A stretch of DNA of 64,000 nucleotides from Aromatoleum buckelii (GTDB lineage: Bacteria > Pseudomonadota > Gammaproteobacteria > Burkholderiales > Rhodocyclaceae): assembly GCF_012910785.2 (NCBI RefSeq), contig NZ_WTVH02000009.1, positions 496,001-560,000 on the forward strand. The letters are read 5' to 3'. How positions within the stretch are numbered: the first letter of the stretch is position 1; each line of letters begins with the position of its first letter. Below the pieces are notes generated by a model. That model saw only the letters and a list, made by a program, of their open reading frames with translations. It searched no databases and was not told the DNA's origin. Below, piece by piece: positions 9,241 to 11,605 of this stretch. The position numbers and the translations under genes were made by a program.

Positions 9241-10050
9241 TCAGCGGCGGGTGAGGAAGCTCCGTATGGCATTGCCCACTGCATCGGGGGCCTCCGCCAG
9301 CATTGCGTGCCCGGCACGAGGAATGGATATCATACGTGCGCCGTCCGTTACCCCGGCAAGCGCTTCGTGCAGGGGTTTGACTGCGCGCCGCGGAGTCATC
9401 TGGTCGCGCTCGGCGCAGAGCAGCAGCGTCGGGCAGCGGACCGCTGCGGCAGCCGCGAGACCCCCTTCGTAGGCGTTGCAGGCGCCGAGGTCGATGGCCA
9501 GCACGCTGTCGCCCTGTCGTTCCATGAGTCGGCGATTCAGTCCAGTGAGCGAGATTCCCGGTACCGCGCTCGCCCCGAGCTGCGACGCGAAAGTGTAGGA
9601 CCAGTGGTTGATCATCGCGTGGGCTGCGGCCCGGTCACCGTTTGCGGCGGACAGCAGCGGTTCGGCAACCGGCATCGGCGCGACACTTCCGAGCAGAATC
9701 AGCTGCGTGGCGCGATCAGGGAACTGTGCCGCAGCCTGCAGCGCGACGAGCGACCCCATGCTGTGACCGGCAATGGCGGCACGCCGGACGCCGGCCGCAT
9801 CGAGCAGTGCCCCGAGCCAGTCTGCGAGCGCTTCGATCGACGCGAGCGGGGCGCCGCCCGAGCGCCCATGTCCGGGGAGATCCGGGACGAGCACCGAAAA
9901 GCCGTGGCGCGCGAGGTGGCGCGCCTGGAAGTTCCACACGCTGTGATCGTGAGCGGCGCCATGCAGCAGCACGACGACCGGCTGCGCGGGCGCGAAACTC
10001 TGCCCGCCCGTATAGATGAAGACCGGGAGCCCGGATACCGTCAGCTGCAC
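9241..10050 (-). CDS. Alpha/beta hydrolase
   Basis: This 269-residue serine hydrolase-fold protein has its full catalytic set: oxyanion segment LLHGAAHD near residue 30, nucleophile elbow GHSMGS near residue 95, an acid in CAERDQMTP, and the terminal His in RAGHAMLAEAPD. I place the start at GTG 10050, 5 bases after the stop of the upstream MetY-like gene and 9 bases after GGAGG (10060-10064). It thus follows that gene in one operon. The substrate is not evident; lactonase, esterase and C-C hydrolase activities all occur in this fold. Coupling to a homocysteine-type protein hints at a thioester or lactone substrate, but that is speculation. Confidence 0.85.
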   Translation of the reverse strand: MQLTVSGLPVFIYTGGQSFAPAQPVVVLLHGAAHDHSVWNFQARHLARHGFSVLVPDLPGHGRSGGAPLASIEALADWLGALLDAAGVRRAAIAGHSMGSLVALQAAAQFPDRATQLILLGSVAPMPVAEPLLSAANGDRAAAHAMINHWSYTFASQLGASAVPGISLTGLNRRLMERQGDSVLAIDLGACNAYEGGLAAAAAVRCPTLLLCAERDQMTPRRAVKPLHEALAGVTDGARMISIPRAGHAMLAEAPDAVGNAIRSFLTRR

Positions 10051-10055
10051 CGTCT

Positions 10056-11360
10056 CTATCCTCCGACCACCCGGCTCGCCGCATACAATCCGCGGTCGAG
10101 GTCTTCGATCAGGTCGTCGATGTGCTCGAGCCCCACCGACAGTCGCAGCGTGCCTTCGCCGATCCCGGCGGCAGCGAGCGCGGCGGCGGACAGGCGGCAA
10201 TGGGTCGTGCTCGACGGGTGGCTCACGAGCGACTTGGCATCGCCGACGTTCGCCAAGTGCGAGAACACTTTCAGGCTCTCGATGAAGGCGCGGGCGGCCT
10301 CGCGTCCGCCGGTCAGCTCGAAGGACAGGACCGCTCCCGCGCCATCCGGCAACAGCCGGCTCGCCAGCTCGTGATCGGCGTGGGTCGCGAGTCCGGGATA
10401 CGCGACTCGTGCGACGATCGATTGACGGGTAAGGTGGGCGGCGACGGTTCGCGCATTCGCGACGTGCGCACGCATCCGCAGCGGCAGCGTCTCGATGCCC
10501 TGGAGGATCTGGAATGCGTTCATCGGCGAGAGACAGGCGCCGAAGTCCGGCAGCGCCTCGCACCGAACGCGCAGCAGGAAAGCCGCGACCGGAGATTCCT
10601 CGCTGAAATCCATGCCGTGAAAGCCGTCGTACGGCTCGGTCAGCGTCGGGAAGAGGCCCGACTGCTCCCAGTCGAACCGCCCGCTATCGACGAGCAGGCC
10701 GCCGACGGCGACGCCGTGGCCGCCGAGAAACTCGGTGGCCGAATGCAGGACCAGATCTGCGCCGAGCGACAACGGGCGCTGCAGGCAGGGGGTGACCAGC
10801 GTCGCATCGACGAGCAGCGGGACGCGGCGGGCATGGGCGATCGCGGCGACGGCGGGAATGTCGAGCACCTCGAGGCCGGGATTGCCGAGCGCCTCGCCGA
10901 ACAGGAGCCGGGTTTCGGGCCTGATCGCGTCACGCCATTCGTCGGGGCGGCGTGGATCGACGAAAGTCGTCTGGATACCGAAGCGCGGCAGCGTGTGGGC
11001 CAGCAGATTGCGGGCTGCGCCGCCTAGCGAACGCGACGCGACAACGTGATTGCCGGCTCCCATCAGCGTCGTGATCGCGACATGCAGTGCCGCTTGGCCG
11101 CTCGCCAGCGCAATCGCGCCGATTCCCCCTTCCAGGGCGGAGATGCGCTCCTCGAGGACTGCGCTGGTCGGATTCGAGAGGCGCGTATCGACGTGCCCGG
11201 GGCGCTCGTGGTTGAACAGCGCCGCGGCGTGATCGGCATCCGGAAAGACGTAGCCGGCGGTGAAATAAATCGGTGTCGCGCGCGCGCCGAAGGCCGGGTC
11301 AGGGAACTGCCCTGCATGCAGGGCGAGCGTCTCGGGGGCAGGGGGTCCGTACTGGGTCAT
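10056..11360 (-). CDS. MetY-like Cys/Met-metabolism family protein lacking the PLP lysine
   Basis: This 434-residue protein aligns in style from end to end with O-acetylhomoserine sulfhydrylase, the PLP enzyme that makes homocysteine. The C-terminal half ([35 protein letters not shown]) is close to canonical. Active-site positions differ: the Schiff-base Lys of HSATK is Glu210 ([11 protein letters not shown], codon GAG at 10731-10733); the phosphate-binding Tyr of YTR is Asp58; the ring-stacking Tyr of LYGG is Gly; and VDNTFATPY reads VDATLVTPC. The Asp that pairs with the PLP nitrogen (Asp185) is kept. The frame is unbroken and lies in an operon with a DUF465 gene and a hydrolase, so a non-catalytic role seems likelier than simple decay. 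Confidence 0.85.
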
Positions 11361-11389: not shown

Positions 11390-11605
11390 TCAGGCCCGCT
11401 CGTCGGGTTCGAGCATGCGTTCGACGACGGCGATCCGGTCTTTCAGGGCGAGCTTGCGCTTCTTGAGGCGGCGCAGCAGCAATTCATCTTCCTGGGGCGA
11501 CGCATCGAGGTGGCTGATCGCCTCGTCGAGGTCACGATGCTCGGCCCTGAGTTCGGCCAGCCTCACCTGCAGGCTGGTAACGTTGTCGAATGCTTCCTCG
11601 CTCAT
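11390..11605 (-). CDS. Small DUF465 (YdcH-type) protein
   Basis: This 71-residue protein is highly charged and helical, with the DUF465 pattern LRAEHRDLDEAISHLDA then DELLLRRLKKRKLALKDRI, probably two helices in a coiled hairpin. No biochemical function is established for the family. The start ATG at 11605 is the natural one; longer upstream reading lacks family similarity. It is the first gene of a likely operon with the MetY-like gene (29 bases downstream) and the hydrolase. Confidence 0.85.
   Translation of the reverse strand: MSEEAFDNVTSLQVRLAELRAEHRDLDEAISHLDASPQEDELLLRRLKKRKLALKDRIAVVERMLEPDERA

Follow-up and report, generated by a model that had tools for sequence, protein, structure and literature searches.

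Serine palmitoyltransferase includes a subunit, LCB1 (SPTLC1), that has the fold of a PLP enzyme without the lysine and that forms a regulatory heterodimer with the active subunit. Bacterial pseudoenzymes of PLP-dependent families are, to our knowledge, rarely recognised as such, since annotation calls them enzymes. (Titles and the first parts of abstracts of the open-licence papers listed revealed no such pseudoenzyme of the MetY type, and the terms "O-acetylhomoserine" and "pseudoenzyme" never occurred together in one open-licence paper.) A further precedent comes from trypanosomatids, in which a dead paralogue of deoxyhypusine synthase activates its paralogue as a heterotetramer, as described in the part of PMC3663545 used here.

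Functions of the residues discussed below come from methionine gamma-lyase (MGL), for which we rely on part of one report (PMC9307983). In the Citrobacter freundii enzyme, Lys210 binds PLP, whose phosphate is held by Tyr58 and Arg60, and Lys210 is also contacted by Tyr58 from the adjacent subunit. The most likely general acid is Tyr114 in the Pseudomonas putida enzyme, which corresponds to residue 113 here. Residues 11 to 229 of the C. freundii chains match residues 11 to 229 of the protein described here, and therefore the numbers 58, 60, and 210 are identical in both.

The window analysed here is a stretch of 64,000 nucleotides from Aromatoleum buckelii. Its reverse strand encodes a MetY-like protein of 434 residues at positions 10056 to 11360, with no internal stop codon; the first-pass annotation of this DNA had noted a MetY-like protein with an intact frame at these positions. 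The protein matches Pfam PF01053 (the Cys/Met metabolism PLP fold) at 394.8 bits. It also matches NCBIfam NF006004 (PRK08134) over residues 1 to 431 at 755.5 bits, above the curated cutoff of 636, and so belongs to the family named "O-acetylhomoserine aminocarboxypropyltransferase." Upstream, and probably in the same transcription unit, is a small gene for a DUF465 (PF04325) protein (positions 11390 to 11605, reverse strand, with an inferred ATG start). Downstream is a gene for an alpha/beta hydrolase (positions 9241 to 10050, reverse strand), assigned from matches to Pfam Abhydrolase families. Across the 17 genomes of the genus these genes lie in a constant order (DUF465, metY, hydrolase, and then a gene for a membrane protein), except that DUF465 is unseen in one (G003), where the contig ends. 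A search of the 64-kb window against Rfam at the gathering score gave no riboswitch or other RNA match, and a PHROGs search at 1e-10 gave no phage-family match.

Five of these 17 genomes (G000, the window genome; G005; G007; G008; and G011) encode Glu210 and Asp58 in place of the lysine and tyrosine, and the remaining 12 encode Lys210 and Tyr58. These five group together as a single clade in the metY tree, and again in a tree built from three neighbour genes, each time with 100% ultrafast bootstrap support. The A. anaerobium protein is 93% identical to the window protein, and the A. anaerobium locus contains that of G008. G005 is probably A. aromaticum EbN1. Others have distinguished an "EbN1 group" (A. 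anaerobium, A. aromaticum, A. buckelii, and A. bremense) from a "CIB group," as set out in part of PMC7825797, and the five-genome clade would correspond to the former.

Wider sampling gave the same picture. Residues were read at 111 of 115 loci (the best 30 together with the best 80 listed), comprising 100 distinct sequences and including one paralogue, L002; the four left out (L003 to L006) are part-matches to paralogues. Six of these 111 listed loci are from the clade, and the other 105 all have Lys210, Tyr113, Gly115, and Arg271. A class-wide search gave matches in 82 of 229 genomes; among the best 30 further loci 29 have the lysine, and the remaining one is the window itself.

Alignment identified 84 columns that are invariant across 34 rows of the lysine type. 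All five clade genomes differ at six: Y58D, Y113G or Y113C, G115A, K210E, R271P, and I380S. Codon 210 (10731 to 10733; this and the following codons are on the reverse strand) is GAG, and the SAT-K motif that carries the Schiff-base lysine of working PF01053 enzymes ends in glutamate throughout the clade; the 105 other listed loci have lysine. Codon 58 (11187 to 11189) is Asp in all five genomes, replacing the tyrosine that contacts the neighbouring subunit's lysine and binds the phosphate of PLP; Tyr is present in all 104 readable loci listed outside the clade, and one further locus does not span the site. Codon 113 (11022 to 11024), at the site of the probable general acid in MGL, is Gly in four clade genomes and Cys in one; the others listed all have Tyr (105 of 105). 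Both active-site tyrosines thus are absent. Codon 115 (11016 to 11018) encodes Ala, and codon 271 (10548 to 10550) Pro, where the 105 other listed loci have Gly and Arg, respectively. Codon 380 (10221 to 10223) is Ser; the listed lysine-type loci have Ile in 104 cases and Cys in one.

Several of these changes had been noticed beforehand. Codon reading confirms that HSATK has become HSATE, with Glu210 encoded by the GAG at 10731 to 10733; the motif DTRLSNPT does contain Asp58; and LYGG indeed reads LGGA, within LGGAARNL (Gly113 and Ala115). The list was incomplete in lacking R271P and I380S. The rest of the protein had been called canonical, which holds for LRLSVG; the stretch [16 protein letters not shown] likewise is present, but with Ser380 where 104 of 105 listed lysine-type loci have Ile. 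VDATLVTPC, also proposed as a loss at the cofactor site, was rejected: this motif is in 11 of the 12 lysine-keeping genomes of the genus, and the other (G013, locus L015) has VDATLVSPC. More distant lysine-type relatives have VDATL, VDATF, VDSTF, or VDNTF forms. Since it is common to lysine-type relatives, VDATLVTPC is a subfamily trait and no loss.

Other active-site residues remain. Asp185, Ser207, Thr209, Ser367, and Arg406 (whose roles are taken partly from the portion of PMC9307983 used here and partly from general knowledge) are present at all six clade loci, from five genomes, and Gly88 and Gln89 likewise are retained at every clade locus. By our estimate, the constancy of Glu210 and Asp58 within the clade says little at the present divergence. 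Further invariant residues have been lost within the clade: R60S, A90S, P161F, D374E, H381D, A383S, H387L, and D416N. (The A. anaerobium orthologue, L036, has the extra conserved-site changes R60S, P161F, and H387L.) With invariance defined from 32 outgroup rows, the seven from Aromatoleum being excluded, one or more clade members have a change at 14 of 84 sites, and the other 70 are untouched. The same site set shows no change (0 of 84) in 11 lysine-type genomes of the genus, G010 being left out, although the number of variable sites is similar: 70 of 434 in the clade and 63 of 434 in the lysine-type genomes. Fisher tests of clade against lysine-type genomes gave P = 7e-5 by sites, and P = 0.003 for the variable sites within each set; these values are a guide only, because the test ignores shared ancestry.

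The predicted structure suggests that the fold is unchanged. AlphaFold models of the window protein and of a matched lysine-type orthologue have mean pLDDT values of 88.4 and 90.3, respectively, and nearly identical elements; these computed models cannot prove the fold, because the input alignments consist mostly of lysine-type relatives. The predicted helix preceding R271P ends at residue 269, versus 273 in the lysine-type orthologue, and confidence over residues ~271 to 280 is 71 versus 85. The best PDB matches to the predicted fold are MetY-type and related gamma-synthase structures, with TM scores of about 0.9.

Selection on metY was evaluated with a codon model (our own script; GY-type, F3x4) on 13 of 20 taxa. 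The clade dN/dS was estimated at 0.1145, compared with 0.031 in the background and 0.068 on the stem. Fixing the clade value at 1 cost 147 lnL units (2 delta lnL about 293), and fixing it at the background value cost 29. Single clade tips gave 0.075 to 0.152, and 1 was rejected by about 10 to 28 lnL units in each; the G007 fit stopped short of the optimum. In a site-class run on 12 of 20 taxa, background and clade values were 0.000 and 0.068 for sites invariant in 30 outgroup rows; 0.001 and 0.057 for sites at least 90% conserved; and 0.046 and 0.150 for the rest. Neutrality was rejected for each of the three classes.

Among genes with usable fits, metY has the highest clade/background ratio, 3.7. 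The nine controls, drawn from two other loci and including the paralogues metZ and metY2, gave ratios of 0.73 to 2.43, and the hydrolase gave 2.2; such comparisons between genes are approximate, because the controls were fitted on other taxon sets (11 to 13 taxa). (Labels of the control genes are mostly our own reading.) Clade dN/dS for these controls spanned 0.013 to 0.173, and the metY value falls inside this range. Control gene M61, found in two clade genomes and no others, was skipped. The membrane-protein neighbour was dropped as a codon-model control because its fits were inconsistent, the more constrained model lying 133 lnL units below M0.

By pairwise counts, the dN/dS of metY averages 0.178 over the 10 pairs within the clade and 0.071 over the 55 pairs among the 11 lysine-type genomes of the genus; corresponding values are 0.227 and 0.175 for the hydrolase, and 0.079 and 0.119 for the membrane protein. 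Clade metY proteins are 77.4 to 78.4% identical to those of three other-genus genomes and G010, whereas lysine-type metY proteins are 84.7 to 88.0% identical. For the hydrolase the excess is milder, at 1 to 4 points. Evolution of metY thus sped up on the lineage leading to the clade. Computation thus places metY in the clade under strong purifying selection, relaxed about 3.7-fold: relaxed beyond the usable controls, yet evolving as slowly as ordinary working genes.

How should such a gene be classified? A pseudogene would have a disrupted frame or neutral dN/dS; all five clade genomes have an uninterrupted metY frame, at a mean pairwise dS of about 0.22 (the G005 frame is two residues shorter at the end), and neutrality is rejected. 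A pseudoenzyme has an enzyme fold, here a predicted one, without an essential catalytic residue, and selection retains its gene after the loss, as the clade dN/dS of 0.11 indicates (1 being rejected, with relaxation against lysine-type relatives). The first-pass annotation had read the gene as an established pseudoenzyme, and the shared changes, open frames, and rejection of neutrality in the clade argue for that part of its interpretation. It had named a change confined to this strain as grounds for refutation, and the five-genome distribution runs counter to that.

Our preferred explanation is that the protein is a pseudoenzyme, fixed in the clade, that lacks the PLP Schiff base and is retained for a non-catalytic binding role; we consider this probable. 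With the PLP chemistry gone and the protein retained, such a role is the most economical account. On the branch to the five Aromatoleum genomes six invariant residues were replaced, among them the Schiff-base lysine and two active-site tyrosines. From known chemistry, an internal aldimine with PLP would be impossible without Lys210, and an aspartate near the phosphate subsite should further disfavour PLP. Most invariant positions stay, as do Gly88, Asp185, Ser207, Thr209, Ser367, and Arg406, and in the computed rates purifying selection keeps the protein. A folded and probably homo-oligomeric protein would then work by binding, with its altered pocket or its surface holding a ligand or partner. 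Sulfhydrylase chemistry presumably would be done by lysine-keeping paralogues, such as metY2 (PRK06084) and metZ. Tentatively, the EbN1-group MetY homologue might have lost the whole of its PLP chemistry on one branch and might now, with its acidic pocket, serve in ligand sensing or in regulation.

The main rival is slow decay, because constraint on metY is weaker than formerly, as the high clade/background ratio indicates, and because more invariant residues are falling. Catalysis would have been lost once paralogues made the gene redundant, and the gene would persist because too little time has passed. Fresh changes at invariant sites inside the clade fit this explanation, and so does the adjoining hydrolase gene, which is relaxed as well and is frameshifted in one clade genome. 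However, dN/dS both in the clade and in its single tips is far from 1, all five frames have stayed open at the observed dS, and 70 of 84 invariant sites are intact. These observations make slow decay unlikely.

A special case of the preferred explanation holds that the protein is a non-catalytic subunit that regulates an active paralogue. Candidates exist, since the window genome encodes three paralogues with the lysine; the first-pass annotation had suggested looking for a genuine metY elsewhere in the genome. These are metY2, which is a PRK06084-like MetY (789.7 bits, cutoff 790; TIGR01326, 655.9 bits, cutoff 495.1); metZ (NF006003, 704.9 bits, cutoff 522); and a relative of 413 residues. 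The gene for the last, a Cys/Met-family member (L136:5316-6554; C4:325315-326553 in its own genome), has a match in every clade genome, and the other 12 genomes of the genus have none at E 1e-140; it passed no NCBIfam cutoff among the best 25 of 40 families. On the other side, the closest paralogue is only 47% identical to the MetY-like protein. Moreover, a mixed catalytic dimer would harm the partner's site too, because Tyr58 acts in the neighbour's active site (PMC9307983, in the part used here). Co-acceleration of metY2 with the pseudoenzyme was considered and set aside: its stem dN/dS is 0.072 versus a background of 0.0087 (loci L187 to L199), a raised value that we give no weight because identities to five outgroups show no consistent acceleration. 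A regulatory subunit of this kind seems improbable.

Alternatively, the protein might be a neofunctionalised enzyme, in which an acidic pocket (Asp58, Asp185, and Glu210) supports metal-assisted, acid-base-assisted, or some other chemistry that needs no Schiff base. In favour of this, the clade members share specific substitutions, and residues of the ligand type stay; but R60S and P161F in A. anaerobium suggest that the pocket is loosely held. We regard a new catalytic activity as quite doubtful.

Translational coupling would retain the metY frame merely so that ribosomes reach the downstream hydrolase gene. The metY stop codon and the apparent hydrolase start are within about 10 bases of each other in the five clade genomes. 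Coupling would preserve the frame and not the amino-acid sequence, whereas dN/dS is 0.11, and this explanation therefore is very hard to sustain. (The hydrolase start, at window positions 10048 to 10050, is an apparent GTG in the clade, and ATG is there in lysine-type genomes of the genus.) Sequencing error or a mutation in a single strain has a negligible chance of accounting for changes on which five genomes agree, and the five chromosomal variants found on resequencing A. aromaticum EbN1 at 300-fold, as given in part of PMC9765128, all lie outside the metY coordinates in G005, if G005 is EbN1.

The hydrolase itself had been proposed to act together with the pseudoenzyme, a partnership for which we find nothing past adjacency. 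Each of the 20 genomes compared has the two genes side by side, and 15 of these genomes are of the lysine type; the metY-hydrolase link therefore is older than the loss of the lysine. By our reading, the Ser-Asp-His triad residues of the hydrolase are present in four of the five clade genomes, the window genome included. In G007 (L120), a frameshift ~36 residues before the end leaves the catalytic His outside the main frame, a possible assembly error; metY in this genome is open though the hydrolase is frameshifted.

Because the loss occurred on one branch of one genus, with 12 lysine-keeping genomes as controls, the transition from enzyme to non-enzyme is open to direct study. If the protein is a sensor or regulator, it would provide a genus-scale case of an enzyme that became a binding protein, and the 12 congeneric genomes that retain the enzyme form would act as natural controls. 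The clade includes the model organism A. aromaticum EbN1 if it is indeed the EbN1 group. The gene also exemplifies a problem of annotation, in that a pseudoenzyme passes NCBI's curated cutoff for O-acetylhomoserine aminocarboxypropyltransferase; metabolic models should not list it as a methionine enzyme.

How do the known systems compare? Like LCB1/SPTLC1, the window protein retains a PLP-enzyme fold though the lysine is absent. LCB1 forms a heterodimer, and the loss of Tyr58 argues against such an arrangement here. The fold of deoxyhypusine synthase differs from the PLP-enzyme fold of the window protein. The trypanosomatid paralogue resembles it in being catalytically dead yet retained by cells; that paralogue forms a heterotetramer with its active counterpart (PMC3663545, in part). 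C. freundii MGL and the MetY structures 8sf6, 7kb0, and 4kam share its predicted fold, but MGL carries PLP on Lys210 (PMC9307983, in part) and the window protein has no such lysine. Closest are the lysine-keeping PRK08134 (NF006004) orthologues of Aromatoleum and other Rhodocyclales. The window protein is 78 to 82% identical to the 12 orthologues within the genus, which share its DUF465 (except G003) and hydrolase neighbours and, in 11 of 12, VDATLVTPC. They differ in having Lys210, Tyr58, Tyr113, Gly115, Arg271, and Ile380.
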